A DNA stretch of 20,735 nucleotides from IMG/VR virus record IMGVR_UViG_3300043464_001968, positions 1 through 20,735 of that record. One strand, written 5' to 3'. This document shows positions 1 through 12,429 of the stretch, one piece after another. Position 1 is the first letter of the stretch, and every line of letters begins with the position of its first letter. The DNA comes from a virus. Below the pieces are notes generated by a model. The model was not told the origin of the DNA. It was given only the letters and a program-made list of their open reading frames with translations, and did not search any database. Made by a program: the position numbers and the translations under genes.

Positions 1-38
1 TCGAAGTCGGGGGCGGCCCGCCGGGGCCGCCGGAAGGA

Positions 39-79
39 CCCCCACGCCGTGGGGGGCTGTTCGCCCCCCACTAGGGGGG
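39..79. repeat. GC-rich overlapping hairpins
   Basis: CCCCCAC (39-45) pairs perfectly with GTGGGGG (49-55) across a 3-nt loop. The run G6 (51-56) can instead pair with C6 (64-69), and that C6 can pair with G6 (74-79), so three mutually exclusive stems are possible. No T-run follows, so a simple intrinsic terminator is not obvious. It may mark the end of a transcription unit to the left of the window or form part of the repeat-rich control region. Confidence 0.5.
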
Positions 80-84
80 CAGCA

Positions 85-169
85 AGTATTTCGATAGCCG
101 ACCGGGCACCGCCCGCGAGTATTTCGATAGCCGACCGCCGCGGCCGCGGCAGTATTTCGATGGCCGACC
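85..169. repeat. Three 19-bp direct repeats at exact 33-bp period (iteron-like)
   Basis: AGTATTTCGATAGCCGACC occurs at 85-103 and 118-136, and at 151-169 with one change (A to G at its twelfth base). Start-to-start distance is 33 bp both times, about three helical turns. The two 14-bp spacers differ in sequence, and the second is a perfect GC palindrome. Conserved words with unrelated spacers suggest protein-binding sites such as iterons or operators rather than simple slippage. The bound protein is unknown. Confidence 0.7.
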
Positions 170-180
170 ATGCTCACGAC

Positions 181-201
181 CGCTCACCGCTCACCGCTCA
201 C
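181..201. repeat. Short heptamer array (CGCTCAC)3
   Basis: Three perfect tandem copies of CGCTCAC directly precede the longer GTCGATG heptamer array. The unit length is the same (7 bp) but the sequence differs, so two heptamer arrays adjoin here. Confidence 0.7.
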
Positions 202-206
202 CGCTC

Positions 207-315
207 GTCGATGGTCGATGGTCGATGGTCGATGGTCGATGGTCGATGGTCGATGGTCGATGGTCGATGGTCGATGGTCGATGGTCGATGGTCGATGGTC
301 GATGGTCGATGGTCG
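207..315. repeat. Heptamer tandem repeat (GTCGATG)15.6
   Basis: Fifteen perfect GTCGATG units run from 207 to 311, followed by four bases of a sixteenth. Because 3 x 7 = 21, every frame of the strand reads as the same repeating heptapeptide, so the apparent open frames are an artefact. Such heptamer short tandem repeats are known from cyanobacteria and planctomycetes and vary in copy number by replication slippage. The array lies about 90 bp upstream of promoter P1. Confidence 0.9.
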
Positions 316-376
316 GATTCTCATTTCCTAAGTGTCCGGTCGGCAACAACTCTTTGCGATTGCCCGACGTTCAAGC

Positions 377-391
377 AAAAAAAGTTTTTTT
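377..391. promoter_or_regulatory. A7-G-T7 tract upstream of P1
   Basis: A7 (377-383), G, then T7 (385-391) forms an AT-only inverted tract in an otherwise GC-rich region, 10 bp before the P1 -35 box. It could act as an UP-like element, as a DNA unwinding or bending element, or as a terminator hairpin for upstream transcription. A comparable A5-C-T4 tract sits just before P2. Confidence 0.5.
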
Positions 392-401
392 GGTGGAGCA
401 C

Positions 402-430
402 TTGACGCCATGTTGCCGATGGGATACTAT
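402..430 (+). promoter_or_regulatory. Promoter P1, sigma70-like
   Basis: TTGACG at 402-407, a 17-bp spacer, and TACTAT at 425-430 make a near-consensus promoter about 45 bp before the first start codon. Bases 411-427 (TGTTGCCGATGGGATAC) recur with one change in P2 at 4958-4974, so the spacer plus the start of the -10 is probably also an operator. It would drive the rightward operon from 475. Confidence 0.75.
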
Positions 431-474
431 CATCACAGCGGGCAGGAAACCCGCGACCAACTAGGAGACGAACG

Positions 475-702
475 ATGCCCGCGACCATGACCAACACCGC
501 CAACGCGAAGCGGCTTGCGGCGACTATTGGCGTCAATCAACTGTGGTGCCTCCAACTTACCAACGGCCGTCTGTACGTCGTGGCCGACGCCTATGGATCG
601 TATGGCAGCGGCCGACGATGGGCCGTGACCGACGATGATGCAATCGAAATGGCCCGCAAGGCTGGAGTGATTTGCTCCGATGAGGGAGAGGTGACCGAAT
701 GA
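475..702 (+). CDS. Unknown 75-aa protein, first gene of the P1 operon
   Basis: I do not recognise this protein. The start is supported by TAGGAG ending 7 nt before ATG 475 and by promoter P1 about 45 bp upstream. The stop overlaps the next start as ATGA at 699-702, which predicts translational coupling to the helix-turn-helix gene downstream. The central part (LWCLQLTNGRLYVVADAYG) looks like a beta-hairpin core, and the C-terminus is acidic. There is no membrane segment or Cys cluster. As the first product of a strong, apparently regulated promoter it could be a small regulator or an early host-interaction protein, but that is inference. Confidence 0.7.
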   Translation: MPATMTNTANAKRLAATIGVNQLWCLQLTNGRLYVVADAYGSYGSGRRWAVTDDDAIEMARKAGVICSDEGEVTE

Positions 703-1286
703 ACACCGCCGAACACAAATCCGCCGCTGCCGCCGCTGGCCTTCAATGGCCCGACGTTTTGGCAGCGTATCGGGAAACCCGTGCGATTGAAGCCGAAGAG
801 TTGGAGCGTATCGGATCATTCCGACGCGAAGCGTTGGAACAACTGAGCGGCGACAACCACGCTGGCCGCTTTAGCGGTCGCCATCGTGCGGCCTTCAGCG
901 GCGGCGACGCTACCTACATTCGCGGGCTGGACGTTACCGCCGCTGGTCGCGGGATGACCGCTGATGAACTATTTGACGAACTAGCCACAACCAGCCGAAC
1001 CATGCGGCCAGCCGATGAAGTCATGGCCGAGGTAATCGAGCGGCTTTCTGGCCTCAACCAGCCCGCCGAAGAATGCGAGCCGACATGGATGGGTCTAGTC
1101 GCGGCCGCGGCCGCGGCCGACATAACGGAGCAATGGCTACGCCAACTCGTGAAGGCCGGGAAGGTGCGTGGCCGACGGGTCGGCCGCCGTTGGGAGGTAG
1201 CCGCGGCCGATGTGGCATTCTTCCAGCGTCACCCAACGGCCGGCCGTCCCCGCGTTCGTGCTCACCTTGAAGCCTCACCCTTTTGA
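699..1286 (+). CDS. 195-aa protein with C-terminal helix-turn-helix (HTH_17/excisionase-like)
   Basis: The N-terminal 120 residues are charged, helix-rich and unrecognised. Residues about 131-176 match the small winged-HTH pattern of excisionase/MerR-type domains: a helix from the Ala run (AAAAAADI), TEQWLRQLVKAGKVRGRRVGRRWEV, then an ADVAFFQRH helix. The poly-Ala comes from a GCGGCC hexamer run near 1100-1120. Translation is probably coupled to the preceding gene by the ATGA overlap, with GAGGGAG just upstream. The gene ends 4 bp before a perfect 20-bp palindrome (1291-1310), a plausible target for this or another regulator. DNA binding is likely; whether it is a repressor, an excisionase or a replication-origin factor is not resolved. 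Confidence 0.75.
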   Translation: MNTAEHKSAAAAAGLQWPDVLAAYRETRAIEAEELERIGSFRREALEQLSGDNHAGRFSGRHRAAFSGGDATYIRGLDVTAAGRGMTADELFDELATTSRTMRPADEVMAEVIERLSGLNQPAEECEPTWMGLVAAAAAADITEQWLRQLVKAGKVRGRRVGRRWEVAAADVAFFQRHPTAGRPRVRAHLEASPF

Positions 1287-1290
1287 TCTA

Positions 1291-1310
1291 TTGTGTCCCA
1301 TGGGACACAA
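1291..1310. promoter_or_regulatory. Perfect 20-bp palindrome, probable operator
   Basis: TTGTGTCCCATGGGACACAA is a perfect inverted repeat with no loop. It lies between the HTH gene stop (1286) and the ardC-like start (1377). A GTG and an ATG inside it could extend open frames, but the ardC-like gene has a better start with a ribosome-binding site downstream. A dimeric repressor site is the simplest reading. No matching -35/-10 pair is obvious around it. Confidence 0.65.
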
Positions 1311-1376
1311 CCAACAACACAACCCGACCCGGCCGCGGGATTCAATCGGCCGGAACACTTGAACGGAGAAACGACG

Positions 1377-2330
1377 ATGAATGCCACAACCACAACCACA
1401 ACCCGCCGCGACGTTTACCAGGAAGTCACCGACGCGATCGTGTCGCGTCTCGAATCTGGCACCGTGGCACCGTGGCACCAGCCATGGAAAGCCGGCCACG
1501 TCGCCGGCCCGGTCTCCCGACCGCTGCGCCATAATGGAAAACCCTACCAGGGGGTAAACGTGCTGATGCTCTGGATCGCGGCTGAATCGGCCGGCCACGT
1601 CTCCCCCTACTGGCTCACCTACAACCAGGCCCGCGAGATCGGCGGACACGTTCGGAAGGGTGAGAAGGGGACAACCGTTGTCTACGCTTCAACGTTCCGG
1701 AAAACCGAAGAGAAGGCCGACGGCACGACCGCCGAGCGGTCGATACCGTTCCTGAAAACCTATACCGTTTTCAACGCTTGCCAGTGTGACGACCTGCCCG
1801 CCCACTACATGCAGATTGCCGAACCGTCGGCCACGGCCGGCGACCCCCTGCCCGCGGTGCTCGAGTTTGCCACCAACACGGGAGCAGACATCCGCGAGGG
1901 CGGGAGCCGAGCGTACTACAACCCGTCGGCCGACTACGTCCAGATGCCGCCGGCCGGCACGTTCGACAACCCGGAATCGCACGCCGGCACACTGTGCCAC
2001 GAGCTGGCCCACTGGACAGGCCACGGCGCCCGGCTCGCTCGTGACTTCTCCGGGCGATTCGGCGATGACAAGTATGCCGCGGAGGAGCTGGTAGCCGAAC
2101 TCGCGGCCGCCTTCCTCGCCGCCGATCTCGGCTACGAGCCACAACCACGCGAAGACCACGCCAGCTATCTGGCATCGTGGCTCCGCGTGTTGAAGGCCGA
2201 CAAGCGTGCCATTTTCACCGCCGCCAGTCACGCCAGCCGATCGGCGGAATATCTCCACTCGCTCCAGCCGGGCGGAGCCAACCGTACCGAAGAGACGGCC
2301 GACGACCTGGAGCCGATCGCCGCAGAGTGA
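1377..2330 (+). CDS. ardC: ArdC-like antirestriction protein (ssDNA-binding domain plus zincin-like metallopeptidase)
   Basis: ArdC-family proteins are carried by plasmids and phages and protect incoming DNA from host restriction. They combine an N-terminal single-strand DNA-binding domain with a C-terminal zincin-like fold. Residues about 8-130 (VYQEVTDAIVSRLESGTVAPWHQPW, YWLTYNQAREIGGHVRKGEKGTTVVY) match the ArdC N-terminal domain. HELAH (residues 208-212) followed by EELVAE (236-241) gives the zinc ligands and catalytic Glu. The length of 317 aa is usual. The open frame extends to a GTG at 1293 inside the palindrome, but ATG 1377 has GGAG 8 nt upstream and gives the family's normal N-terminus. 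The first codons (MNATTTTTT) continue the C/A-rich leader theme. It is the only gene here with a clear counter-defence role. Confidence 0.92.
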   Translation: MNATTTTTTRRDVYQEVTDAIVSRLESGTVAPWHQPWKAGHVAGPVSRPLRHNGKPYQGVNVLMLWIAAESAGHVSPYWLTYNQAREIGGHVRKGEKGTTVVYASTFRKTEEKADGTTAERSIPFLKTYTVFNACQCDDLPAHYMQIAEPSATAGDPLPAVLEFATNTGADIREGGSRAYYNPSADYVQMPPAGTFDNPESHAGTLCHELAHWTGHGARLARDFSGRFGDDKYAAEELVAELAAAFLAADLGYEPQPREDHASYLASWLRVLKADKRAIFTAASHASRSAEYLHSLQPGGANRTEETADDLEPIAAE

Positions 2331-2344
2331 CGACCTGCCCTCAC

Positions 2345-2369
2345 CCCCTGCCCGCCCCCGGGGCAGGGG
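2345..2369. repeat. REP-like hairpin after the ardC-like gene
   Basis: CCCCTGCCC (2345-2353) pairs with GGGCAGGGG (2361-2369): a perfect 9-bp stem with a C-rich 7-nt loop. The flank CCCTCACC resembles widespread REP-type palindromic elements. It lacks a T-run. It may limit read-through or stabilise the upstream message, or be a mobile REP unit. Confidence 0.6.
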
Positions 2370-2395
2370 AGACGGGCCGGCCGACACTCGACCGA

Positions 2396-2414
2396 CCACA
2401 ACCACCACCAGGAG
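2396..2414 (+). promoter_or_regulatory. C/A-rich translation leader, copy 1
   Basis: CCACAACCACCACCAGGAG ends 8 nt before ATG 2423. The identical 19-mer recurs at 2811-2829, and close variants precede five further genes. It combines an unstructured C/A stretch with a consensus ribosome-binding site. Confidence 0.7.
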
Positions 2415-2422
2415 CAGATCCC

Positions 2423-2731
2423 ATGAACGCCACAACCACCGACAACCTTTACGGATGCCCCACCAAGCAGATCGACCACGCCGCCTATCCCAAACTGTGC
2501 CGCACGCGATCGGACGCCGAACTTCTGTTCGTCATCGCCGATTGCCAAGCAGTCCTCGCCGCATGGCCCGACCAGCCGAACTACGGCTATTACCTGGACG
2601 AAATCAACTACTGTGCCGATGAGCTGGCCCGACGGGCCCGCGGCAGCAAACGCCGCCGCCCCACAACCAACGAGATAGCAGCCGCTGCAGCCGCGGCCGC
2701 TTGGAGCCTATGCGAAGGGCTTGACGACTGA
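2423..2731 (+). CDS. Unknown 102-aa protein
   Basis: Not recognised. The start at 2423 is fixed by AGGAG 8 nt upstream within the C/A-rich leader; an in-frame ATG much further upstream would run back through the REP-like hairpin. The N-terminus MNATTT repeats the start of the ardC-like protein and of the gene at 3313. Residues 28-70 (SDAELLFVIADCQAVLAAWP, YYLDEINYCADELARR) look like a compact helical bundle with three Cys overall. A basic patch (SKRRRP, 75-80) and an Ala run encoded by GCNGCN repeats follow. It sits immediately downstream of the antirestriction gene, so an accessory counter-defence role is possible but unproven. Confidence 0.75.
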   Translation: MNATTTDNLYGCPTKQIDHAAYPKLCRTRSDAELLFVIADCQAVLAAWPDQPNYGYYLDEINYCADELARRARGSKRRRPTTNEIAAAAAAAAWSLCEGLDD

Positions 2732-2776
2732 CCCGGGCCGCCCCGGCCACCGCCGCCCCACCGGGGACGGCTGGAA

Positions 2777-2800
2777 CCGGGCCGGCCCGGCGATCGCCGG
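2777..2800. repeat. Two overlapping perfect 14-bp palindromes
   Basis: CCGGGCCGGCCCGG (2777-2790) and CCGGCGATCGCCGG (2787-2800) are each perfect palindromes sharing four bases, so two alternative strong hairpins can form between the genes ending at 2731 and starting at 2838. The second contains GCGATCGC, an octamer that is over-represented in this window. Confidence 0.6.
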
Positions 2801-2810
2801 CCACCGAGAC

Positions 2811-2829
2811 CCACAACCACCACCAGGAG
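2811..2829 (+). promoter_or_regulatory. C/A-rich translation leader, copy 2
   Basis: Exact 19-base copy of the leader at 2396-2414, ending in AGGAG 8 nt before ATG 2838. Confidence 0.7.
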
Positions 2830-2837
2830 CCACAACC

Positions 2838-3209
2838 ATGTCCGACTACATCGCACGATTCGACCGCGGCCCGTCGACACGATTCGACGCCGTCACCGAC
2901 TCCGCGGCTATCGACTACGTCCGCGAACTACTGGCCGACGAGGGGGCCGACGATGGCGAATCCGCCAGCGTCTATCGGCTCGACGACGACGCGAACGGCG
3001 TCGAGGAATATATCGGCGAGGCCACCGCCGGTAACGACGACCAGGCCGACGACGACGCCCAACCGTTAGCCGTCGAAATCGTGCCGGCCCCGCTGGGGCC
3101 GATCGAAAGAACCATCGCCGGCCTGATCGTGCGATGCCTTGACCTAGTCGCAACAGTCGCGGCCGATTGGCGCGACGCCCTTACCGAAGAAATGACGCCC
3201 GCAACCTGA
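2838..3209 (+). CDS. Unknown acidic 123-aa protein
   Basis: Not recognised. ATG 2838 is chosen because AGGAG lies 8 nt upstream at the end of an exact copy of the repeated leader; the frame is open further upstream but only through the palindromic spacer. The protein is strongly acidic in its first 80 residues (ADEGADDGESASVYRLDDDAN, NDDQADDDAQ), with a possible amphipathic or weakly hydrophobic helix near residues 88-110 (PIERTIAGLIVRCLDLVATVAADW). Small acidic phage proteins are often DNA mimics that block host nucleases or methylases. The acidity and the ardC-like neighbour make that a reasonable hypothesis, not a demonstrated function. Confidence 0.75.
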   Translation: MSDYIARFDRGPSTRFDAVTDSAAIDYVRELLADEGADDGESASVYRLDDDANGVEEYIGEATAGNDDQADDDAQPLAVEIVPAPLGPIERTIAGLIVRCLDLVATVAADWRDALTEEMTPAT

Positions 3210-3231
3210 TCGCCGCGGCCCCCCGGCCACC

Positions 3232-3271
3232 GGCCGCCGACCTGGCGGCCGGGCACCGGGCGGCCGGGCAC
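3232..3271. repeat. Hairpin and 12-bp direct repeat between small genes
   Basis: GGCCGCC (3232-3238) and GGCGGCC (3244-3250) form a perfect 7-bp stem with a 5-nt loop. GCGGCCGGGCAC is then repeated at 3245-3256 and 3260-3271. This GC-rich block separates the gene ending at 3209 from the C/A leader of the next gene. Confidence 0.55.
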
Positions 3272-3280
3272 AACGCCCGA

Positions 3281-3304
3281 CCACAACCCACCACCACCGA
3301 GGAG
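3281..3304 (+). promoter_or_regulatory. C/A-rich translation leader, copy 3
   Basis: CCACAACCCA, CCACCACCGA and GGAG run together before ATG 3313, with an 8-nt gap between GGAG and ATG. It is the same layout as the other leaders. Confidence 0.6.
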
Positions 3305-3312
3305 CCGAGACC

Positions 3313-3699
3313 ATGAACGCCACAACCACAACCACCGCCACCGACCAGCGCCCGACGTGCTGCGAATGCGGGAGCCACAAGGTAGAGACAACCGCATGGA
3401 TCGACTACGACGCCGAGGGCGTCGCCCGCATCGTCGACGGCGAAGGCCCGCACGGGGACGAAACCGGCAACTGGTGCCACGACTGCCAGGAGCACGTCTA
3501 CCTTGACTTCCCCACAACCACGCCGGCCGACGACGCCCGACGCCAGGCCGCCAACGCGGCCCGCGAGCACGCCGGCGAAATGCTGGAGCTGCTAACGGCG
3601 ATCGTGGCCCCAACGCTCGGCTACTACTCGCCGGACGATGCCGCCGCTTGCGGGTCGGCCATGGCACGGGCCCGCGAACTACTGGCCCGGCTTGCATAA
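3313..3699 (+). CDS. Unknown 128-aa protein with probable zinc ribbon
   Basis: Cys16-x2-Cys19 and Cys55-x2-Cys58 (TCCECGSHK and NWCHDCQEH) give a CxxC/CxxC pair typical of a zinc ribbon. The 35-residue loop between them contains an acidic WIDYDAEG stretch. The C-terminal half (residues 70-128) is helical and Ala-rich. The N-terminus MNATTTTTAT is encoded by CACAACCACAACC, extending the leader repeat into the gene. Zinc ribbons of this size bind nucleic acid or protein partners in many phages. I cannot assign a family. The gene is free-standing with leader-driven translation rather than overlap coupling. Confidence 0.75.
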   Translation: MNATTTTTATDQRPTCCECGSHKVETTAWIDYDAEGVARIVDGEGPHGDETGNWCHDCQEHVYLDFPTTTPADDARRQAANAAREHAGEMLELLTAIVAPTLGYYSPDDAAACGSAMARARELLARLA

Positions 3700-3776
3700 C
3701 CCGCGGCCGCCCCCGCCCCCCCGTCAGCCACCAGGCCCACGGGGCACCGGGGCCGGCCGTAACGTTGACGACCAAC

Positions 3777-3795
3777 CCACAACCACAACCAGGAG
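3777..3795 (+). promoter_or_regulatory. C/A-rich translation leader, copy 4
   Basis: CCACAACCACAACCAGGAG ends 8 nt before ATG 3804. It differs from copies 1 and 2 by a single base. Confidence 0.7.
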
Positions 3796-3803
3796 AACCA
3801 ACC

Positions 3804-4088
3804 ATGAGACCCCCCGAGACCTTGAAGCACGGCACCGCCCTTATCTCTTGCACTGGCGGATGGCGAATCCGTTGGGCAGACGGCACGACCGCCGGCCGCG
3901 TTCGTGCTCGCCTACGCCGAGACCGTACCGCGTGGATCGCATTCTGCGACGCATGGGATGGATACACCTGGACGCGAGACAAGGTAATAACCCGCCCGAC
4001 ACTCCCCGAACTGGAAGACGCCGTCCGGCAGTATGCCGACGCCGTTGACCAGCACGCATGGGTAGCGACCGGCGCTTGCCACAACTGA
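3804..4088 (+). CDS. Unknown 94-aa protein
   Basis: Not recognised. ATG 3804 follows AGGAG in the C/A leader; upstream extension of the frame crosses the previous gene and has no ribosome-binding site. Residues 8-55 (HGTALISCTGGWRIRWADGTTAGRVRARLRRDRTAWIAFCDAW) look like antiparallel beta strands with many Trp and Arg, and the C-terminal third is helical (LPELEDAVRQYADAV). It is basic and Trp-rich, unlike the acidic neighbour at 2838. It could bind nucleic acid, but there is no diagnostic motif. Confidence 0.72.
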   Translation: MRPPETLKHGTALISCTGGWRIRWADGTTAGRVRARLRRDRTAWIAFCDAWDGYTWTRDKVITRPTLPELEDAVRQYADAVDQHAWVATGACHN

Positions 4089-4102
4089 CCGCCCACAACC
4101 AG

Positions 4103-4130
4103 CCACACAACCACAACCCACAACCAGGAG
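4103..4130 (+). promoter_or_regulatory. C/A-rich translation leader, copy 5
   Basis: ACACAACC, ACAACCC and ACAACCAGGAG in series precede ATG 4139, with 8 nt between AGGAG and ATG. This is one of the two longest C/A stretches in the set. Confidence 0.65.
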
Positions 4131-4138
4131 CCCACGCC

Positions 4139-4378
4139 ATGACCGCCGCCCAGTTTTGCCGACTCGCCGCCCGTTACCGCGACCTCGATCCCACAACCCG
4201 CCGAGCCGTCGACGCCCTCGCCATCGGCGACGCCCGCACGGCCGACGACCACGCCCCCCGTGGCACCGACGCCCGCCGCACGGCCGACCGTTACCTACTC
4301 GACCTCGACGCCGCTGGTGCCCCGGTCGGCCCCGCCCGCCCGGCCCCGGCCCGCTTCGTCCCAATGTTCGCCGACTGA
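4139..4378 (+). CDS. Unknown 79-aa protein
   Basis: Not recognised. ATG 4139 follows an extended C/A leader ending in AGGAG. The N-terminal half is helical (FCRLAARYRDLDPTTRRAVDALAIGDARTADDHA). After a second helix (DARRTADRYLLDLD) the tail is Pro/Ala-rich (PARPAPARFVP) and probably disordered. Its size and layout match the other small products of this block. No membrane segment or catalytic motif is visible. Confidence 0.7.
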   Translation: MTAAQFCRLAARYRDLDPTTRRAVDALAIGDARTADDHAPRGTDARRTADRYLLDLDAAGAPVGPARPAPARFVPMFAD

Positions 4379-4409
4379 CCACAACCAACCCCACAACCAC
4401 AACCAAGAG
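4379..4409 (+). promoter_or_regulatory. C/A-rich translation leader, copy 6
   Basis: CCACAACC repeats start almost at the preceding stop codon and end in AAGAG, a weaker ribosome-binding site, before ATG 4418. The whole 39-bp gap between the two genes is C and A apart from the AAGAG. Confidence 0.65.
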
Positions 4410-4417
4410 CCACAACC

Positions 4418-4669
4418 ATGCCCCCCAGCCGCTTTCACCTAGCCCCCTATTCCTTGACGTTCGCGGCCGACGACCACCAGCGAAACCGCTGGACCCTCGC
4501 CGCATACATCGCCGCGATCGACGCCGGCGGCCAGCTCAACCACCAAACCCACCAGGCCGCGATCCTGGAGGGACGACGGCTAGACGCCGAGACCGGATTT
4601 CGTTGGTGGGTGCTCGACACGGCCGGCAAGCTGGACGCCACGCCAGCCAGCGGTTCCGCGATCGCTTGA
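4418..4669 (+). CDS. Unknown 83-aa protein
   Basis: Not recognised. ATG 4418 lies 8 nt after AAGAG within the repeated leader. The sequence mixes aromatic-rich stretches (FHLAPYSLTFAADD, FRWWVLDTAGKLD) with a helix (RWTLAAYIAAIDAGGQLNHQTHQAAILEGRR). There is no hydrophobic segment long enough for a membrane span. Its TGA stop lies inside a consensus TTGACA at 4666-4671, a possible -35 for the next gene. Confidence 0.72.
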   Translation: MPPSRFHLAPYSLTFAADDHQRNRWTLAAYIAAIDAGGQLNHQTHQAAILEGRRLDAETGFRWWVLDTAGKLDATPASGSAIA

Positions 4670-4693
4670 CACTTGGAGCCGACCGGAAACAAT
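4666..4693 (+). promoter_or_regulatory. Possible promoter for the small HTH gene
   Basis: A perfect TTGACA (4666-4671) is followed after 16 bp by AACAAT (4688-4693), a 4-of-6 match to a -10. If used, transcription would start close to ATG 4701, giving a leaderless or nearly leaderless message and ruling out ATG 4692 as the start. The weak -10 keeps confidence low. Confidence 0.35.
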
Positions 4694-4700
4694 GTCTCCC

Positions 4701-4919
4701 ATGGCACCCAAGATCGACCCGGACAAATACGTCACCATCGGCACCGCCGCCAAACTGGCGAACGTGTCGCGGCTATGGATGAGGAAGCTAGTCCAGAATG
4801 GGCACGTCTCCGGAATCCAGATCGACAACCAATGGTTTGCCCTACGGTCGGCGGTTGAATCGTTCGCCGAGACAACAGCCGGACGCGGCCGACCACGCGG
4901 CGGAAACCACGCCCACTAG
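4701..4919 (+). CDS. Small helix-turn-helix DNA-binding protein (HTH_17/excisionase-like)
   Basis: Residues about 10-55 (YVTIGTAAKLANVSRLWMRKLVQNGHVSGIQIDNQWFALRSAVESF) fit the compact HTH_17 fold: two helices with a turn, a short wing, then a final helix. The C-terminus is basic and Gly-rich (GRGRPRGGNH). The domain resembles the C-terminus of the 195-aa protein at 699-1286, so the window has two regulators or excisionases of one type. Neither ATG 4692 nor 4701 has a well-spaced ribosome-binding site; 4701 is preferred because 4692 overlaps the possible -10. It lies just upstream of promoter P2. It is the only gene in this block without the C/A leader, so it may be regulated separately. Confidence 0.78.
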   Translation: MAPKIDPDKYVTIGTAAKLANVSRLWMRKLVQNGHVSGIQIDNQWFALRSAVESFAETTAGRGRPRGGNHAH

Positions 4920-4929
4920 CCCACGCCAG

Positions 4930-4977
4930 AAAAACTTTTCTTTATCCCTTGTTTAGTTGTTGCCGATTGGATACAAA
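4930..4977 (+). promoter_or_regulatory. Promoter P2, sigma70-like, with operator shared with P1
   Basis: TTGTTT (4949-4954), a 17-bp spacer and TACAAA (4972-4977) form the promoter. A5-C-T4 (4930-4939) lies upstream, as A7-G-T7 does at P1. TGTTGCCGATTGGATAC (4958-4974) matches P1 at 16 of 17 bases at the same position relative to the -10. It would drive the 5028-6024 genes. Confidence 0.7.
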
Positions 4978-5027
4978 TAGTCAGACACCACAACCCGCGA
5001 CCCCGGCCGCACAACCAGGAGAGAACC

Positions 5028-5294
5028 ATGACCCCGATCGCCCGATACCAAACCCTAGCCACCCGCCACGCCTTCCGCGGTTGCGACCCGCTCACCCAGC
5101 CGATCGTCCACGCGATCGCCGGGGGCCGGGAGATGCCGGAGGAGTTTGCCATCCTCGACACCTATTACGACATCGGTGCCCCCGAGGTGGAGCAGCGGTG
5201 CGAGACGATCCGCGATGAGGTCCGCCGGATAACCAGTGCCGCCGGAATCCCCATGGCCCGCACGTTCACCATGATCGACGGAGGTGCCGCATGA
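5028..5294 (+). CDS. Unknown 88-aa protein, first gene of the P2 operon
   Basis: Not recognised. ATG 5028 follows CACAACCAGGAG with a 6-nt gap, and P2 lies about 50 bp upstream. The stop overlaps the Prim-Pol start as ATGA (5291-5294), so the two products are probably made together. The protein is mostly helical (RYQTLATRHAFRG, EFAILDTYYDIGAPEVEQRCETIRDEVRRITSAAGIP) without a known motif. Coupling to a primase-type gene suggests a replication accessory or an early factor, by context only. Confidence 0.78.
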   Translation: MTPIARYQTLATRHAFRGCDPLTQPIVHAIAGGREMPEEFAILDTYYDIGAPEVEQRCETIRDEVRRITSAAGIPMARTFTMIDGGAA

Positions 5295-5782
5295 CCCCCG
5301 ACATCATCGCCCTCGCCGCCGCCGGTTGCCGATTCATCCGCGTCGCCCGCCGGGAGAAACGCCCGCTCGGCTCGGCTTGGCAAACCCGCAGCACGGACAA
5401 CCCGGCCGACGTGGCCGCGTGGATCCGCTCCGGCTCCAACGTGGGCATCCTGCTCGGCGAGCCGTCGGGCGTTGTCGACGTTGAATACGACTCCCCCGAC
5501 GGGCTCCAGGAGCTTGCCGCCTACGGGATAACCGACCTTCACACGCCGACCTGGCGGTCGGCCCGCGGGGAGCACCGACTATTCCGTTGGGAACCGTGGA
5601 TGCCGCCGACGGCCGTCGTGAAACTTGGGGCTATCGAAATACGGATTGGCGGTCGGGCCGCCCAATCGGTGCTCCCGCCGTCGGTCCACCCGACGGGCGT
5701 GGCATATGAATGGACAACCAGCCCGGCGGAAGTGGGAATCGCCCACTTTCCCGCCCAGCTACTGGCGGGAGCACTGGCATGA
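5291..5782 (+). CDS. Standalone Prim-Pol domain (bifunctional DNA primase/polymerase N-terminal family)
   Basis: Prim-Pol (AEP-type) domains make primers and extend DNA in phage and plasmid replication. The pattern is clear: an N-terminal GCRFIRVARREKRPLGSAWQ segment, VAAWIRSGSNVGILLGEPSGVVDVEYDS (acidic residues D63 and E65 in the catalytic strand, with D67 nearby), RGEHRLFR (H96), and RIGGRAAQSVLPPSVHPTGVAYEW. At 163 aa it is just this domain; related phage proteins usually fuse it to a helicase or continue for several hundred residues. The catalytic strand reads DVEYD rather than the common DxD, so activity is likely but not certain. The gene is coupled on both sides by ATGA overlaps. Confidence 0.85.
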   Translation: MTPDIIALAAAGCRFIRVARREKRPLGSAWQTRSTDNPADVAAWIRSGSNVGILLGEPSGVVDVEYDSPDGLQELAAYGITDLHTPTWRSARGEHRLFRWEPWMPPTAVVKLGAIEIRIGGRAAQSVLPPSVHPTGVAYEWTTSPAEVGIAHFPAQLLAGALA

Positions 5783-6024
5783 TCCGCGACGCCGTCCGGG
5801 CACTTCTCGCCGTCGTCGTTATGGCGATCGCCGCCGCTCTACTTATAGAGACGCGATTCCACCTGGCGGCGATCGACACGGCCCACCGGGCAGCCATTGA
5901 CATACGTCAATCGGCCACACAACCAATGGCCCCACAACCAGTAGCCGCGGAGCCGGCCCCGCTTCGCCGGCTTGGACGGGCAACCCTAGACCTGGCTGAC
6001 GCCGCCGTCGGTCTCTTGCGGTGA
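5779..6024 (+). CDS. Small single-pass membrane protein, 81 aa
   Basis: ATG 5779 overlaps the Prim-Pol stop (ATGA). Residues 6-24 (VRALLAVVVMAIAAALLIE) form a signal-anchor or transmembrane helix. A helical stretch follows, then a Pro/Gln-rich linker (ATQPMAPQPVAAEPAP) and a short amphipathic C-terminal helix. The CACAACCA word of the upstream leaders appears inside this linker. The 3' end overlaps the end of the convergent gene by 39 bp. It could be an early membrane-interaction or superinfection-exclusion protein; the sequence alone does not decide. Confidence 0.7.
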   Translation: MIRDAVRALLAVVVMAIAAALLIETRFHLAAIDTAHRAAIDIRQSATQPMAPQPVAAEPAPLRRLGRATLDLADAAVGLLR

Positions 6025-6387
6025 GTCGGCGATCGACCGCCCCATCGCCCGCAGGATCGACCGCCACGGCCGCGACGGCCACCACAGATCGAGTAGCACC
6101 ACCCCGATAGCCGAGGTCGTGCCGCCCAGTACCACGTCCCACAGCGGCCCGGACCCGTGACGTGCTTCCCACTGCTCGCGGACCTGGCTCCGCATTAGCG
6201 TGAGGGCATGGCCGACCGACGCATGATGCCGCCCGCCCCCGGCTTCGGCGTCCTCTAGGTGATTGTGCGGCCAGTGCCGAATCGCCAGCCTGGTGAGCTG
6301 GTCGACCCGCCAGACTTCGGCATAGGTGACACGCGACCCCAACCGGTAGCGGACGTGCGCTTGTAGTTGGGCGATCGCTTCGTTCAC
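5986..6387 (-). CDS. Unknown 133-aa protein with possible membrane segment, last gene of the late operon
   Basis: The start is GTG 6387, 4 nt after the preceding stop at 6392, with only a weak GGCGGTG ribosome-binding site. The N-terminal 80 residues are soluble-looking and His/Arg-rich (VRYRLGSRVTYAEVWRVDQLTRLAIRHWPHNHLED). Residues about 82-104 (LWDVVLGGTTSAIGVVLLDLWWP) could cross the membrane. The C-terminal end is antisense to the last 39 bp of the rightward arm. It sits in the lysis-type cluster, so an accessory lysis or membrane role is possible. Function is unassigned. Confidence 0.62.
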   Translation of the reverse strand: MNEAIAQLQAHVRYRLGSRVTYAEVWRVDQLTRLAIRHWPHNHLEDAEAGGGRHHASVGHALTLMRSQVREQWEARHGSGPLWDVVLGGTTSAIGVVLLDLWWPSRPWRSILRAMGRSIADSPQETDGGVSQV

Positions 6388-6391
6388 GTCG

Positions 6392-6601
6392 TCACCGCCG
6401 GGGTGGGCACGTTCCGGAGACGCACGTCGTGCCGGACTTCACCGGCACCGGCACCGGCGGCTTCGCCGCCAGCTCCTCGAGGATCGACGCCCTGGCGGCC
6501 GACACCGCAGCCGCAGCCCTCGCGGGCTCGGTCGCGATCCGCTGGTGATCGGCAGATAGCCAAACGAGTATCGAAATAACCCACCGCCAGAGGATGCTCA
6601 C
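6392..6601 (-). CDS. Small membrane-anchored protein, 69 aa
   Basis: The start is GTG 6601, overlapping the upstream stop as GTGA; an in-frame ATG further upstream would overlap the previous gene for about 40 bp. Residues 2-15 (SILWRWVISILVWL) are hydrophobic and probably anchor the N-terminus. An Ala-rich helix (ARAAAAVSAARASILEELAA) and a Pro-rich tail with two Cys (PPVPVPVKSGTTCVSGTC) follow. The layout of short anchor, helix and Pro-rich tail resembles spanin-like or Rz-type lysis accessories, but there is no specific match and no lipobox. Confidence 0.6.
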   Translation of the reverse strand: MSILWRWVISILVWLSADHQRIATEPARAAAAVSAARASILEELAAKPPVPVPVKSGTTCVSGTCPPRR

Positions 6602-6849
6602 GGCTTCACCTCGTCGAGTTTCCTCCAGATCGCCATACACGCGACCGCACCGACGACCGACAGCACCAGGCCAGCCGGCCGGTAGTGGTCACCGCTCACG
6701 AGAGAACCGGCCAGACCGCCGGCCACGGACCCGGCAACCCCGACGGCGATCGTCTGCCACCGGCTTGTTGGCTTTACCGGCGGCCACAACCATTCGGCGA
6801 TTGAGCCGGCGATGAAACCGAACATGAGCCATACGATGATCGAAAACAT
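6598..6849 (-). CDS. GlsB/YeaQ/YmgE-family small membrane protein
   Basis: This 83-aa protein has three predicted transmembrane helices (about residues 3-22, 32-52 and 58-76). Its Gly-rich pattern FGFIAGSIAEWLWP, then VGVAGSVAGGLAGSL, then LSVVGAVACMAIWRKL is typical of the transglycosylase-associated/GlsB family of stress-response membrane proteins. ATG 6849 overlaps the upstream stop (TGATG) and has GGAGGG 8 nt upstream; the longer upstream frame runs antisense through non-coding codons. In a phage lysis region such a protein could serve as a holin or as a modifier of the host membrane. The family match is good; the phage role is inference. Confidence 0.78.
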   Translation of the reverse strand: MFSIIVWLMFGFIAGSIAEWLWPPVKPTSRWQTIAVGVAGSVAGGLAGSLVSGDHYRPAGLVLSVVGAVACMAIWRKLDEVKP

Positions 6850-7109
6850 CACCAGCCCTCCGCATGACATACGAGTGATCGGTCCGAACAATGGGCGGCC
6901 GCGTATTGCTGCTCGACCGGCCGCGGTGCCGGCTCGGCGAACACCGTCATCCACAACCCCATTTTCGCCAGCCGCGAAATCAGTTTGATGAACGGGCGTT
7001 GCGGCCGCGGGTTGAATGGATTCACCGGGTCGAAGCCTGGCACACTGGCGGCCAGATAACCGGCCACGAGACAGCCGAGACATGAGAGAACGATGCCGCG
7101 TTTGGTCAT
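6849..7109 (-). CDS. Small protein with N-terminal membrane segment, 86 aa
   Basis: ATG 7109 gives MTKRG followed by a hydrophobic segment (IVLSCLGCLVAGYLAASV, residues 6-23). An alternative GTG at 7121 would overlap the preceding stop (GTGA) and add four residues. After the segment come a Pro/Phe-rich stretch (GFDPVNPFNPRPQRPF), a helix and a Cys/His-containing tail (AAAHCSDRSLVCHAEGW). The lipobox-like VLSC is not a good match. No family is recognised. It lies between the papain-like peptidase and the GlsB-type protein, all with overlapping stops and starts, so co-expression is expected. Confidence 0.65.
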   Translation of the reverse strand: MTKRGIVLSCLGCLVAGYLAASVPGFDPVNPFNPRPQRPFIKLISRLAKMGLWMTVFAEPAPRPVEQQYAAAHCSDRSLVCHAEGW

Positions 7110-7117
7110 GACAACAC

Positions 7118-8266
7118 TCACAGGGCGAGGTAGTGATTGACGGACGGCGACTTCGCCGCGTCGGTCGGGGCCGGGGCTGGGGCCGGCTGCAGCCAGCCGG
7201 CGTGATCGAGGTCGCGGTACTTGAAGCCGTCGACCGAACCGATGACGAAGGAATCGCCTTGGGCGAGGATCGCTTCCGCGTCTTGGCGGGAGATCCAGAA
7301 CGAGCCGTCCGGCTGGTCGGATGGATGCTTATTGCCCCCGACGTAGTTCGACCACGAGTTGAGCACCAGCACGCCGTCCCGCGGATTCTTCATTGGCGAT
7401 GAAGAACCAGCCGCGTTGTTCTTGGCGTACTTCACCGCAACGATCACCATGCAGTGATTCCAGGTTCCGGCCCGCCGACAGAACCCATCCGAATCCCGAT
7501 CGCCACTGGCAAATCCGACGTTGCTGCAAATCGGCACGCACATGCCCGACTCTAAGGCGGACACAAGCGACGCCCAATCCTCACAGAGAGCCACGGCCCT
7601 CGCGGTGTGCTCGCGGCCCAGCTTCGCGAGCGAGGGTGGCACTCCGTATGCACCCCACTGCCGAGAGCGGTCGATTGAGTAGGTCGTGAGGTCGATGTCG
7701 CCGTAGACCTGGCGATAGAGGATCCCGCCGACCGTCTGGTCCTTGCACCGCCCCGACACCCAGCGGGCCGCAGCACCGCCGTAGGAGCCGTCGGAGAACC
7801 CAGCGTTGGTGACCGGCGGCATCCGGCCGGCGGTCCTCGACCCGCCGTAGATTGGCTCGGTCGCCACGATCAGCGGGCATTCAGCCAACCCGCCAGCGAC
7901 GTGATCGACACACTGGCCGATGTACGACCCCATAGCCCAGCCGAAAGAGACGCACGTCCCGGCGCTACCCTGGTTCCACGGCCCGAATGGCTTGCCGTAC
8001 TTCTGCCGGTGGCACCGGTCGGCGAACCGGTAAAGGTAGGCATCGTGCCCCTTCGCCCCGGCGATGACCTCGGCCCCGGCCTGGCGGAATAGCGGCTGGT
8101 CCAGCTCGCGAAGGAACTCCCGCGTGCCTTCCGGGTTCGCGACGTAACCGAAGTTTGTTTCGACGCGGTCAGCCAGCCGCGAGACGTACCGCGAGACGAT
8201 CGTCCCAAGCACCGCCGCGAACACGACGAACGCGATCGCAGACCACGACCAATCACTTCGCCGCAT
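7118..8266 (-). CDS. Membrane-anchored papain-like (C1 family) cysteine peptidase
   Basis: ATG 8266 gives 382 aa with an N-terminal anchor (residues about 8-26, SAIAFVVFAAVLGTIVS). The catalytic elements of C1 peptidases are all present: Gln99 of the oxyanion hole and Cys105 in NQGSAGTCVSFGWA, His271 in WNHCMVIVAVKY, and Asn303 in VLNSWSNYVGG. Spacing fits the papain fold, and many extra Cys could form disulfides outside the membrane. The C-terminus has an Ala/Pro linker and a short tail. The gene overlaps its upstream neighbour by 14 nt and is coupled to the small membrane genes downstream. A papain-like enzyme beside a holin-like gene suggests a lysis or envelope-degrading role, possibly against a proteinaceous envelope. 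No muramidase or amidase is present in the window. Confidence 0.85.
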   Translation of the reverse strand: MRRSDWSWSAIAFVVFAAVLGTIVSRYVSRLADRVETNFGYVANPEGTREFLRELDQPLFRQAGAEVIAGAKGHDAYLYRFADRCHRQKYGKPFGPWNQGSAGTCVSFGWAMGSYIGQCVDHVAGGLAECPLIVATEPIYGGSRTAGRMPPVTNAGFSDGSYGGAAARWVSGRCKDQTVGGILYRQVYGDIDLTTYSIDRSRQWGAYGVPPSLAKLGREHTARAVALCEDWASLVSALESGMCVPICSNVGFASGDRDSDGFCRRAGTWNHCMVIVAVKYAKNNAAGSSSPMKNPRDGVLVLNSWSNYVGGNKHPSDQPDGSFWISRQDAEAILAQGDSFVIGSVDGFKYRDLDHAGWLQPAPAPAPTDAAKSPSVNHYLAL

Positions 8267-8807
8267 TGGTGGCAGCCCTCCCCAAATCGCGATACGCCGC
8301 AACCCACGCCGTCCGCTGCTCGGCGGTCAGCGGCCCGCCGTCGGTGCCCACGGCGTCCTCGAGGTACTTGGCGATCGCGTCCCGTGCTGCCGGCTGCCGG
8401 TCGCCAATCGAAATACCCCGGCAGCGGAGAATCCTGGTCCGCTTCCGCAGCTCATCCACGCCGATGCCGGTGGAGAGATAGCCGTCTGGCTGGCCGGACG
8501 AAAACTCGATCTCGTCGGCCAGCTCCGAACACATAGCACCGATGAGGGCCGCGTCCTCACTGGCCGTCTCTCCGGCGAACAATCCGGCCAACGACAGCGG
8601 GCCGGCGTCGGGGGCGGGAGTCGGGCCGGGGGCGGGAGACTCCGACGGCCCGAGACCATACGCGACGGCCGCGGCCACCAGGGCGATGCCGGCGTAGTGG
8701 CGGGGCGTGAGTTTGGCGGCGGCGGCCCTGGCCTTCTCGGCCAACGGCTGGAGGTGAGGCCAGCCCCAGGCTGCCACCGCTGCGATTATGAGAAGCGTAG
8801 GAATCAT
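8253..8807 (-). CDS. Membrane protein of 184 aa, unknown
   Basis: ATG 8807 overlaps the preceding stop (ATGA). Two hydrophobic segments occur at residues about 3-18 (PTLLIIAAVAAWGWPH) and 38-52 (YAGIALVAAAVAYGLG), followed by a Pro/Ala linker (SESPAPGPTPAPDAGP). A soluble domain of about 110 residues (LAGLFAGETASEDAALIGAMCSELADEIEF through TAEQRTAWVAAYRDLGRAA) completes the protein. I do not recognise the soluble domain. Placement between the holin-like gene and the papain-like peptidase suggests a membrane partner of the lysis cluster. Confidence 0.75.
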   Translation of the reverse strand: MIPTLLIIAAVAAWGWPHLQPLAEKARAAAAKLTPRHYAGIALVAAAVAYGLGPSESPAPGPTPAPDAGPLSLAGLFAGETASEDAALIGAMCSELADEIEFSSGQPDGYLSTGIGVDELRKRTRILRCRGISIGDRQPAARDAIAKYLEDAVGTDGGPLTAEQRTAWVAAYRDLGRAATNAAK

Positions 8808-9178
8808 GCGAGCCTCACGAGTGGTAGGAGTTGCTCGATCGCCCCGGACGCGAGGGCGAGCACCAGGAGCCGGACGGGCCCGCGAGCCAGCCCCCATAGC
8901 GGCCAGAGCACCAGCGGCACGCATCGGTCGGCCACCGCGTCGAAGAGGGCGGCCACGCCGTCAAGCACCGCGGCCTTCTTCTCCTCGCCCGTCATGCCGA
9001 CCACGTCGTCATAGAGGGAGACGGCCATCCGGAGGAACGCGACCAGCAGTTCACCGAACTCGGCCCACGTCAGCCCGTCAGCAGCGGCAGACTTGGCCGA
9101 CTCAACGAACGCATGAAGTTTCACGAGGACGCCGCCGGGGGTGTTGGCCGCAGCCGCGGCCGGTGCTTCTGCGATCAT
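8804..9178 (-). CDS. Holin-like or membrane-associated 124-aa protein
   Basis: ATG 9178 follows the preceding stop by 2 nt. The N-terminal half is helical (GGVLVKLHAFVESAKSAAADGLTWAEFGELLVAFLRMAVSLYDDV). MTGEEKKAAVLDGVAALFDAVADRCVPLVLWPLWGLARGPVRLLVLALASGAIEQLLPLV then gives an amphipathic helix and two hydrophobic stretches, a layout seen in some phage holin-type proteins. Context supports lysis: it is followed by small membrane genes and an exported peptidase. No family can be assigned from sequence alone. Confidence 0.62.
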   Translation of the reverse strand: MIAEAPAAAAANTPGGVLVKLHAFVESAKSAAADGLTWAEFGELLVAFLRMAVSLYDDVVGMTGEEKKAAVLDGVAALFDAVADRCVPLVLWPLWGLARGPVRLLVLALASGAIEQLLPLVRLA

Positions 9179-10421: not shown

Positions 10422-11027
10422 CTGGCCCTCTCGGTCCATGACTTCATACAAGCAAGCGGCATATCCGGCGATGTCGACCGGGCCGTCGATCGTGGCATTC
10501 GGCCCCCGGAATCGCGCGATCTTGTCGAGGATCATGATCGTGGCCCAATCCGCTTCGGTGAGCGGTCGTTTCAGCACGTCGGAGAACGCCGCGTTGACCA
10601 TCCCGATGGTCCGGGCGAAGTGATGCTTCGGCCCGCCGTACTTCGGGCGACGGTCGCGGATCACTTCGGCGGTCCTCGAGCACAACTGCTCCGCGGGAGT
10701 CTGCTCCGGCTCCGGCCGATCGCCGCTGGCACCGTAAACCCGCCGGGTGATCGGCTCGCCGTCCGGGGCTATCTGGTCCCGCTTGTATTTCTCCCACGCC
10801 GCAGCGATCGCCGCTCCACTCGCCGCACCATCCGCCACGCCGCTCGACCTTGTTGCCTCCAGCATCCGTTCCCTTTCTCGTACGAGTCTCATGCAATGGG
10901 CCGCCAGGTTCCCCGACGTGCCGCACCATTGGCCCTGGAATCGACGGGCGTCACGCACGACCGTCGCGATGTATTCGTCGGTGAGTGGTTCGCGATACGA
11001 AACCTCTGCCGAAGTTTCTAAGGGCAT
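10419..11027 (-). CDS. Phage protein with DUF6378-like C-terminal domain
   Basis: Residues about 120-200 (CSRTAEVIRDRRPKYGGPKHHFARTIGMVNAAFSDVLKRPLTEADWATIMILDKIARFRG then DGPVDIAGYAACLYEV) match DUF6378, a domain common in tailed phages with the signature of a YG-H/F-R region followed by LDK-AR and D-AGYA. The N-terminal part is helical and Arg-rich. ATG 11027 gives 202 aa; GTG 11039 overlaps the preceding stop (GTGA) and is an alternative. The conserved Arg/His/Asp set hints at an all-alpha nucleotide-binding or hydrolase-type fold, but no activity is established. Confidence 0.78.
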   Translation of the reverse strand: MPLETSAEVSYREPLTDEYIATVVRDARRFQGQWCGTSGNLAAHCMRLVRERERMLEATRSSGVADGAASGAAIAAAWEKYKRDQIAPDGEPITRRVYGASGDRPEPEQTPAEQLCSRTAEVIRDRRPKYGGPKHHFARTIGMVNAAFSDVLKRPLTEADWATIMILDKIARFRGPNATIDGPVDIAGYAACLYEVMDREGQ

Positions 11028-11035
11028 AGGTTTTG

Positions 11036-12202
11036 TCACTTCGCACCCCCGACATACTCCATGTGCATCTCGTGCAGCCCGCCACGCTGCGAATAGACGA
11101 AACCTTGCATCGCACGCTCGGCACCAACGAAGCCCATGTCGACGTGCCACGAATCCGGCGGAACGATGGTCGGTGCCGTCCGCACGATCACACTGTCGAT
11201 CGTCCCAACCTCGGCGGCCTGGTGGTGAAGGTGCCCGACGTGCCACTCGCGATGCCGGCACTGCGACCACTGGGCTGCGGCCTCAATCGCCATCACGCCG
11301 GCCAGCTTCTTCCTTGCCTTGTCGCCGTGGGTGACGCCGATCAGATTGCCGCCGTGCGTCAGATACTTCCTTGACGTGAACTCTGTGTTGACCGACACAC
11401 GCTTATCGTCCCGATACCGCTCGGCGAATATCTTTTGGAGAGCCCACGCCATCGCGGTGTCGTGATTGCCTGGCACGAAGACAACCTCAGTCGGCAGCGT
11501 TTCGGCAGACTGCTCCACCACTCCGGCGATGGCAGCGACGGCCATCTCAATCGTCTTCTGCAGCCGAGAGTCGCGGTCGATGTAGGTGCCGCCCGTAGTG
11601 GTCCCAGAGATCGTGTCGAAATGCAGCGTGTCGCCAGCGAGGACAATGGTCCGCCGGCACGACGCAGCACTCCGGTCAATCAGACGGCTCGCCGTCTTTC
11701 CAACCAGCTCGGCGGCGATCGACAAGTCGTAGTCGCTGCCGGTGGTGTGCCGCCAAGACCGCCCTCCGAAATGGAGATCGCTCATCACGAGCACACTCCA
11801 CAATCCGGACTGCTTGCGGCCGTGCCCGCCACGCTTGGGAAGCCGTAGCGAACTGGACGCGGCGGCGATCAGCCCGTCCACGATTTCCGTAGTTGTCGGC
11901 CCGCCCCGCGGCTTGAGCCGCACGAACACCCGGAACAACTCGGTAACGACCGGCTGCCCGGTGCTTCGATCGACCGACGCCGACTCCCACTTGGTCGCTT
12001 CACTCGCCGCGACCTCGTAGCGGTCGAGGTCGGCTTCGATATGCCGCAACAAATCCTCCACCGTGCGGATCGTCCGCGACGTAGACCGGGCCTCGAGCAC
12101 GTCGCCGTCCTGGCGTTTCGTGACTTGCTCGGCGTCGGCGGCTGGGGCCGGCGGCGGGGCCGCGGCCTTCACCCGGTCGATCAGTCTTTCCTTGTCAGCC
12201 AT
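11036..12202 (-). CDS. Calcineurin-like metallophosphoesterase
   Basis: All motifs of the calcineurin-like phosphoesterase fold are present in order (numbering from ATG 12202): MSDLHF with D142 and H144, AGDTLHF with D191, PGNHD with N246, H247 and D248, THGD with H292, and GHLHH with H324 and H326. These bind two metal ions and hydrolyse phosphodiesters or phosphomonoesters. At 388 aa it carries an extra N-terminal region of about 130 residues, with a disordered Ala/Pro segment and a helical part (VEDLLRHIEADLDRYEVAASEATKWES). The start overlaps the preceding gene by 22 nt. In phages such enzymes act on DNA, RNA or protein phosphates; the substrate is unknown. Confidence 0.9.
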   Translation of the reverse strand: MADKERLIDRVKAAAPPPAPAADAEQVTKRQDGDVLEARSTSRTIRTVEDLLRHIEADLDRYEVAASEATKWESASVDRSTGQPVVTELFRVFVRLKPRGGPTTTEIVDGLIAAASSSLRLPKRGGHGRKQSGLWSVLVMSDLHFGGRSWRHTTGSDYDLSIAAELVGKTASRLIDRSAASCRRTIVLAGDTLHFDTISGTTTGGTYIDRDSRLQKTIEMAVAAIAGVVEQSAETLPTEVVFVPGNHDTAMAWALQKIFAERYRDDKRVSVNTEFTSRKYLTHGGNLIGVTHGDKARKKLAGVMAIEAAAQWSQCRHREWHVGHLHHQAAEVGTIDSVIVRTAPTIVPPDSWHVDMGFVGAERAMQGFVYSQRGGLHEMHMEYVGGAK

Positions 12203-12429
12203 TGCCGAAGCCCTTGGCGACCGCACACCGGGAATCCATCCGCCGCAGCCATGGCGACGATCTGATCGGCAAGCCAGCACGCGGAGACTTGCAGATCACC
12301 CGACTGCCACTGCCGGCGGATCTCTAGGAGCTGCTCGCGGACGGCCGGCGGCAGCCGCGATTCAAACCCGCGGGGAGCGGATTTGATGCCGGCTGCAGCC
12401 GCGTTGATGCGGTCGACGAGCGTGCCCAT
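12181..12429 (-). CDS. Unknown 82-aa protein, helix-turn-helix-like
   Basis: ATG 12429 lies about 17 bp after the conserved intergenic element. Residues 25-80 (LPPAVREQLLEIRRQWQSGDLQVSACWLADQIVAMAAADGFPVCGRQGLRQWLTRKD) look like a compact helical DNA-binding unit: helix, SxxWLADQI turn helix, then a recognition-type helix GRQGLRQWL. It recalls small terminase-like or regulator domains in phages, but no confident family can be given. The 3' end overlaps the phosphoesterase start by 22 nt. Confidence 0.6.
   Translation of the reverse strand: MGTLVDRINAAAAGIKSAPRGFESRLPPAVREQLLEIRRQWQSGDLQVSACWLADQIVAMAAADGFPVCGRQGLRQWLTRKD

Follow-up and report, generated by a model that had tools for sequence, protein, structure and literature searches.

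The window analysed here is a virus record of IMG/VR, IMGVR_UViG_3300043464_001968, taken whole (20,735 bases), and this study concerns a C/A-rich repeated leader that stands before small genes on its + strand, together with a GC-rich hairpin lying upstream of it. Small + strand genes occupy the left part of the window (475-6024), and tail genes on the - strand, including that of a tape measure protein (PHROG), occupy the right part. The original prediction, made from the letters of this DNA, had claimed a C/A-rich repeat ending in a ribosome-binding site (RBS) before seven starts. All seven (2423, 2838, 3313, 3804, 4139, 4418 and 5028) are true starts of open reading frames (ORFs) and have both, the Shine-Dalgarno (SD) sequence after the leader being AGGAG at six of them and AAGAG at 4418. 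The features are as follows.

1377-2330, + strand: ArdC-type antirestriction gene ardC (ArdcN and zincin domains), in the first exchangeable slot of the operon
1377-1403, + strand: ardC start MNATTTTTT, where the CCACAA repeat is in frame and reads as Thr codons
2332-2382, + strand: imperfect copy of the hairpin with two non-standard pairs, after ardC
2396-2414, + strand: leader CCACAACCACCACC and AGGAG, 5′ of the gene at 2423
2423-2731, 2838-3209, 3313-3699, 3804-4088, 4139-4378 and 4418-4669, + strand: six small ORFs served by leaders
2423-2437, + strand: MNATT start, the repeat extending into coding sequence
2735-2788, + strand: conserved hairpin after gene 2423-2731 (covariance model R1, 42 bits)
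2811-2837, + strand: leader, AGGAG and CCACAACC spacer, 5′ of the gene at 2838; its first 20 bases equal 2396-2415
3215-3267, + strand: conserved hairpin after gene 2838-3209 (R1, 54.8 bits; descriptor scan)
3281-3304, + strand: leader CCACAACCCACCACCACCG and AGGAG, 5′ of the gene at 3313
3313-3333, + strand: MNATTTT start, the repeat extending into coding sequence
3706-3757, + strand: hairpin of the conserved plan, after gene 3313-3699
3777-3795, + strand: leader CCACAACCACAACC and AGGAG, 5′ of the gene at 3804
4093-4130, + strand: leader of four ACAACC units and AGGAG, 5′ of the gene at 4139
4379-4417, + strand: leader occupying the entire 39-nt gap, with SD AAGAG and CCACAACC spacer, 5′ of the gene at 4418
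4988-5021, + strand: leader with two units flanking a small GC stem, and AGGAG, 5′ of the gene at 5028

The ardC product matched Pfam PF08401 (3.6e-43) and PF18818 (8.9e-51) as well as PHROG 7245; for the six small ORFs within 2423-4669, the Pfam search gave no confident match. The copies at 2396 and 2811 are identical, as had been claimed, over 20 bases rather than 19. The MNATTT starts reported for three genes were found at 1377, 2423 and 3313, but the first of these genes, ardC, has no leader. The leader is also absent at gene 4692, whose likelier start is 4701, and at the coupled genes 5291 and 5779.

Distribution of the repeat

The + strand holds 28 copies of the word CCACAACC and the - strand none, and all lie within 985-6953. 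Between 2331 and 5030 we counted 20 copies, compared with a mean of 0.29 and a maximum of 3 in 1000 dinucleotide shuffles. Gaps make up 20% of the bases in 1-6030, yet hold about half of the copies there. Those inside genes are mostly in the frame xCC-ACA-ACC, and beyond codon 12 there were 10 in 39 gene families, versus 0.3 after codon shuffling and 1.9 after synonymous shuffling. Several other 8-mers inside genes show a similar excess, so the leader, although the principal site of CCACAACC, is not its sole one. It is hardly credible that the C/A strand bias of a GC-rich phage yields the word by chance, mutation and slippage. The region does reach a GC skew of -0.35 and an AT skew of 0.42, slippage can lengthen hexamer arrays, and in-gene copies exist; nevertheless, the shuffles fall far below the count in 2331-5030, and this explanation is already refuted by position dependence, the copies being tied to non-coupled starts and to hairpins.

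The intergenic hairpin

The very GC-rich segments 5′ of the leaders turned out to be a family of conserved hairpins. Each begins 2-8 nt, mostly 5-8 nt, past the stop codon of the preceding gene, comprises about 23 bp, and ends approximately 21-42 nt before the SD. The plan consists of an outer stem (4 or more bp), a 1×1 mismatch (usually C·C), 5 bp, a 3×3 internal loop, 8-11 bp and a loop of 3-7 nt. It was found after at least 15 mutually unrelated families of preceding genes, the apical stem sequence varying between slots, and such hairpins are also present in homologous gaps of related contigs (L003-L036). A strict descriptor of the hairpin had no match in 20 shuffled sequences. In the alignment, 94.7% of the cells were paired and both sides had changed in 55, against 21.5 with shuffled partners and at most 17 with slid partners, although both the paired and the double-change counts benefit from the fitting of the alignment to the structure. 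The non-standard pairs, counted to tell RNA from a DNA strand, were G·U in 9 cases and A·C in 10. An Rfam search at E up to 1 gave no match save one at chance level, and the hairpin model, applied with strict filters and without a positive control to 294 genomes from the phylum to which a Pirellula metagenome-assembled genome (MAG) belongs, found none.

The leader in related phages

Relatives were found via ArdC, the 2838 protein, the tape measure protein, an exact 19-mer and a Prim-Pol alignment, and they constitute a family of uncultured phage contigs through which the leader recurs, well beyond this locus. The + strand genes of 19 contigs were sorted into 49 protein families without detected mutual homology, and a leader in the sense orientation precedes 29 of them at least once; the search for the motif before non-homologous genes, which the original prediction had proposed, thus gave a positive answer. 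Among 63 contigs anchored by Prim-Pol, 25 carry at least six copies of CCACAACC upstream of the Prim-Pol gene, in every case without a reverse copy. Of 36 hairpin-bearing gaps, 34 have the leader, versus 0 of 36 translationally coupled starts; it is also present at 31 of 47 other non-coupled gaps, which are hairpin-free. It is an orientation-specific start leader of the whole phage family.

Phage T7 has RNase III sites in its early intergenic regions that resemble such hairpins, and a hairpin of this size with internal loops, right after each stop and between cistrons of one operon, could be a site of RNase III processing or partial termination, the leader being what is left over at the new 5′ end. 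We consider this rather improbable, because those 31 gaps have a leader without a hairpin and because no U-tract or U-rich terminator was found on the + strand.

Two other ideas were rejected. Outside the phage family, the 19-mer CCACAACCACAACC gave isolated chance matches only: the nine in genome contigs had no phage homologues nearby, and the Pirellula match is one copy in its genome, so the leader does not appear to be borrowed from a host. Nor does it appear to be a promoter for each gene, since a scan of 1-6100 for sigma-70-like sites, which does not cover other promoters, found none inside the leaders.

The word of the leader is uniform within a genome and different between clades, copies of one genome changing together. 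In the Prim-Pol tree, the clade of L103, L104, L112, L116, L122, L123 and L124 has the word CCACGCC and nearly no CCACAACC (checked in six of the seven), and L070 has CGAACC, with 21 sense and 0 reverse copies; most phages with these two dialects retain the hairpins. Within one genome, the copies differ in unit number and register. In distant relatives, where the word is different, the C/A-rich, single-stranded property is retained. A clade-specific word carried by all copies is what one would expect if the sites co-evolved with a factor, and the 1×1 and 3×3 internal loops of the hairpin are fixed, so the leader, the hairpin or both might be an RNA site for a phage or host protein, or a small RNA, controlling all cassette genes. 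Given the variable unit number and register of the copies, and with no candidate factor identified, we regard this as improbable.

Exchange of genes at the leader

Between the Prim-Pol gene and a helix-turn-helix (HTH) gene, gene order and content vary freely among relatives. Comparison of gene content at leader boundaries, another check proposed beforehand, revealed different ORFs between the same borders in close relatives, with the junctions inside or at the leader. Where the upstream gene is the same and the next ORF differs, similarity usually spans the hairpin and leader and ends around the ATG. Where the ORF is the same and the upstream genes differ, it usually ends where the leader begins, near -30, or extends through a hairpin shared by the slot; because the leader is common to all, the break at -30 shows only that pre-leader sequence belongs to the upstream gene. 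Family 10 is found after family 1, 13 or 25, and in each setting it keeps AGGAGAACCAG(A/C)CC and an unchanged spacer from SD to ATG, whereas what lies 5′ of the repeat matches the upstream family, so that in these single cases the change falls within the repeat itself. One leader can thus have a 5′ half and a 3′ half that track different neighbours. As a pattern, the suggestion that leaders serve as short homologies for cassette shuffling held up. Unrelated genes of the same slot have homologous hairpins (families 12, 16, 45 and 26; 8 and 27; 13 and 25), indicating that the replaced unit is the ORF.

These junctions, the uniformity of the word within genomes and its difference between clades, including the CCACGCC clade and L070, and the MNATT start that unrelated proteins have in common also suit a leader that is mainly a recombination homology, kept uniform by exchange or conversion, with translation needing the AGGAG alone. 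This is an unlikely account, though one to be taken seriously: coupled genes lack the leader, the repeat is short (14-27 nt), and C/A-rich single-strandedness outlives the word, which homology alone does not need. A long shot is a dedicated exchange system, in which the hairpin, extruded from DNA, would be opened by a nuclease and the C/A repeats would give homology. An SbcD-like metallophosphoesterase/exonuclease gene is present at 11036-12280 (- strand) of this hairpin-rich phage and could encode such a nuclease; exonucleases of this class act on DNA hairpins. If true, one module would shuffle cassettes and ensure translation of the inserted ORF.

Genes of different families in slot 2 (1377 in the window, L015:1054 and L017:1219) have one 90-nt upstream gap and an MNATT N-terminus in common, and then diverge. 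Judged from the sequence, this gap is a second type of border, without a CA leader. The presence of ardC in one slot suggests that host-takeover and anti-defence genes are among the cassettes.

Predicted folding and standby geometry

In predicted folding, the 25-nt leader tract was unpaired at 0.69, compared with 0.41 when coding inserts took its place, and the value was higher in 24 of 24 families (p = 1e-7). In L005 and L006, phages with a different word, the tract was still predicted to be more single-stranded in 20 of 22 cases. By prediction, then, the leader is the unstructured C/A-rich segment it was claimed to be. The standby model of E. coli defines a surface area As as 15 plus proximal plus distal lengths minus hairpin height, with no penalty at an As of 24 and almost none at 20.5 (PMC3936740). 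Under these rules, 35 modules had a hairpin height of 26.6 ± 1.5 nt, a proximal tract of 31.7 ± 5 nt and a mean As of 23.6, individual modules spanning 4.5 to 35. In this model, the length of the leader would offset the height of the hairpin, the mean As being near the range of little or no penalty.

Interpretation

We propose, with a probability of about 0.6, that the leader is a modular ribosome standby and RBS leader that doubles as a border for cassette exchange, the hairpin being the other half of the module. Its order is stop codon, conserved GC-rich hairpin, single-stranded (CCACAA)n tract, AGGAG and ATG. On a polycistronic message, the hairpin would mark or protect the end of the preceding cistron, and the tract beside it, poor in G and U, would remain single-stranded and may act as a landing (standby) platform for the 30S subunit, with a length sufficient to compensate for the hairpin, and every ORF could then initiate independently of its upstream neighbour. 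Because the same leader stands in the same direction at every border of a genome, the borders could double as short homologies, and ORFs would be exchanged, gained, lost and permuted at leader junctions while still coming under a working start site. What the data show directly is the anatomy of the module, its covariation and orientation, its occurrence before unrelated genes but not at coupled ones, and where the junctions fall; single-strandedness and standby geometry are predictions, and ribosome binding, the role of the hairpin and recombination through the leader are what we infer.

Several points weigh against this proposal. Some copies of CCACAACC lie within genes with no start close by. 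The pairwise junction tests are not mutually independent, and junctions at the borders are equally expected if selection keeps only clean ORF swaps; since such selection gives the same junctions, recombination driven by the leader is not proven. The standby rules are E. coli measurements and may not be those of the host. Finally, partition-function folding predicted the same opening of the SD, 0.49, with the leader and with coding inserts, and the idea that the leader frees the SD is thus unsupported, whereas the predictions favour a standby platform. The suggested insulation of starts from GC-rich hairpins accordingly stands in part: the leader does separate the conserved hairpin from the start, at a length fitting the standby geometry, but does not open the SD in these predictions.

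Other features and host

The candidate promoter of the cassette operon, from a consensus scan, is this site.

402-430, + strand: sigma-70-like promoter TTGACG-17-TACTAT

The scan of 1-6100 gave two such sites (402-430 and 4666-4693) versus 0.8 expected. The region at about 4949-4978 has GTTGCCGATKGGATAC in common with that at 402-430; it reads TTGTTT-17-TACAAA and was not picked up by the consensus scan. In relatives, sequence resembling these GTTGCCGATKGGATAC promoter-like regions lies 5′ of the HTH gene. At 4666-4701 of the window, promoter-like TTGACA-16-AACAAT is immediately 5′ of the HTH_17 gene, whose conserved start probably lies at 4701 (ATGGCACCC) rather than at 4692, and whose product is possibly an autoregulated excisionase-like regulator. 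Upstream of ardC, a perfect 20-bp palindrome, TTGTGTCCCATGGGACACAA (1291-1310), is kept or decayed in relatives and is a possible operator. At the left end of the contig, about 16 TCGATGG units stand in tandem (205-315), and the same array is present in L016. The gene at 10422-11270 (- strand) has a C-terminal DUF6378 domain, and its PHROG neighbours carry the label phosphofructokinase.

Homologues of the 7118-8302 protein, at 30-47% identity, were found in 8 of 392 genomes of the phylum of the Pirellula MAG. Three of the eight also have a homologue of the neighbouring 8253-8924, and two of these three one of 8804-9178 as well. The three genes (- strand) form a module whose homologues occur together in Planctomycetota genomes (L052-L054), where they are probably prophages, and because of them a planctomycete host is likely. 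The tape measure and exonuclease proteins match named phages at less than 60% identity only, indicating that there is no cultured relative.

Comparison with known systems

The nearest likeness is to the start-associated sequences (SAS) and extended start-associated sequences (ESAS) of cluster K mycobacteriophages, whose hosts are of another lineage. As presented in the portions of PMC3203893 and PMC12699233 that deal with them, they too include a short, asymmetric, SD-containing sequence that reads in the sense direction and stands directly 5′ of numerous non-structural genes unrelated to one another, some copies being preceded at once by an inverted repeat; they too are missing from host genomes, and the consensus of the ESAS inverted repeat differs between cluster K subclusters (PMC3203893) as the words here differ between clades. 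The SAS, described in 2011 and with a function still termed in need of experimental verification in the relevant part of PMC12699233, is the fixed 13-mer GGGATAGGAGCCC, whereas a variable C/A hexamer tract precedes AGGAG here. Allowing up to two deviations, GGGATAGGAGCCC was not matched: the leaders of the window have the form (C/A)n-AGGAG-CCACAACC or one close to it, with C/A-rich bases in place of GGGAT just before AGGAG. One orientation before starts of different families was found here as well (29 of 49 families; 0 reverse in the window). The ESAS is described as a 17-bp inverted repeat, for which its authors found little support as an RNA hairpin; the present hairpin follows another plan and covaries strongly, and imperfect conserved 17-bp inverted repeats with a 4-13 bp spacer were not found directly upstream. 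The portions of the two papers on these elements contain no junction analysis.

The promoter-early stem-loop elements (PeSLs) of T4-type phages, as described, after Arbiol et al. 2010 and Comeau et al. 2014, in the pertinent sections of PMC4503421, are likewise repeated intergenic stem-loops between small exchangeable ORFs, with modular shuffling proposed, and here also a stem-loop lies between exchangeable ORFs with junctions at the element. PeSLs carry a promoter and a terminator according to those sections, whereas the present element has an RBS and standby tract, the sigma-70-like sites, the promoter class covered, lying outside the leaders. Because the border departs from these systems in its sequence and in its promoter content, it is, by this comparison, analogous to SAS/ESAS and PeSLs and not a member of either. 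By eye, the intergenic hairpins contain no integron attC core sites (RYYYAAC/GTTRRRY), and no integron integrase model was searched; tyrosine recombinase matches in three of eight longer contigs, one above the Pfam cut-off, are as expected of temperate phages.

Standby modules of bacterial 5′ untranslated regions (PMC3936740) also combine a hairpin and single-stranded flanks upstream of the SD; those were measured, whereas the element here is a natural one repeated between cistrons, with predicted geometry and single-strandedness. In E. coli, expression is stimulated by CA repeats or multimers placed downstream of the start (reviewed in PMC4611024), and C/A repeats also lie near starts here, continuing past the ATG in three genes. 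The main tract is upstream in the present case; by analogy, the MNATTT starts would fit such stimulation.

The present phages would be a second, unrelated family with SAS-like logic: a shared start leader, a hairpin before it, unrelated exchangeable genes and clade-specific words. Such recurrence suggests a plug-in border by which phages gain and express new small genes, and with a covarying hairpin, a word that can be separated from its property, and a standby geometry, its function becomes a testable prediction.

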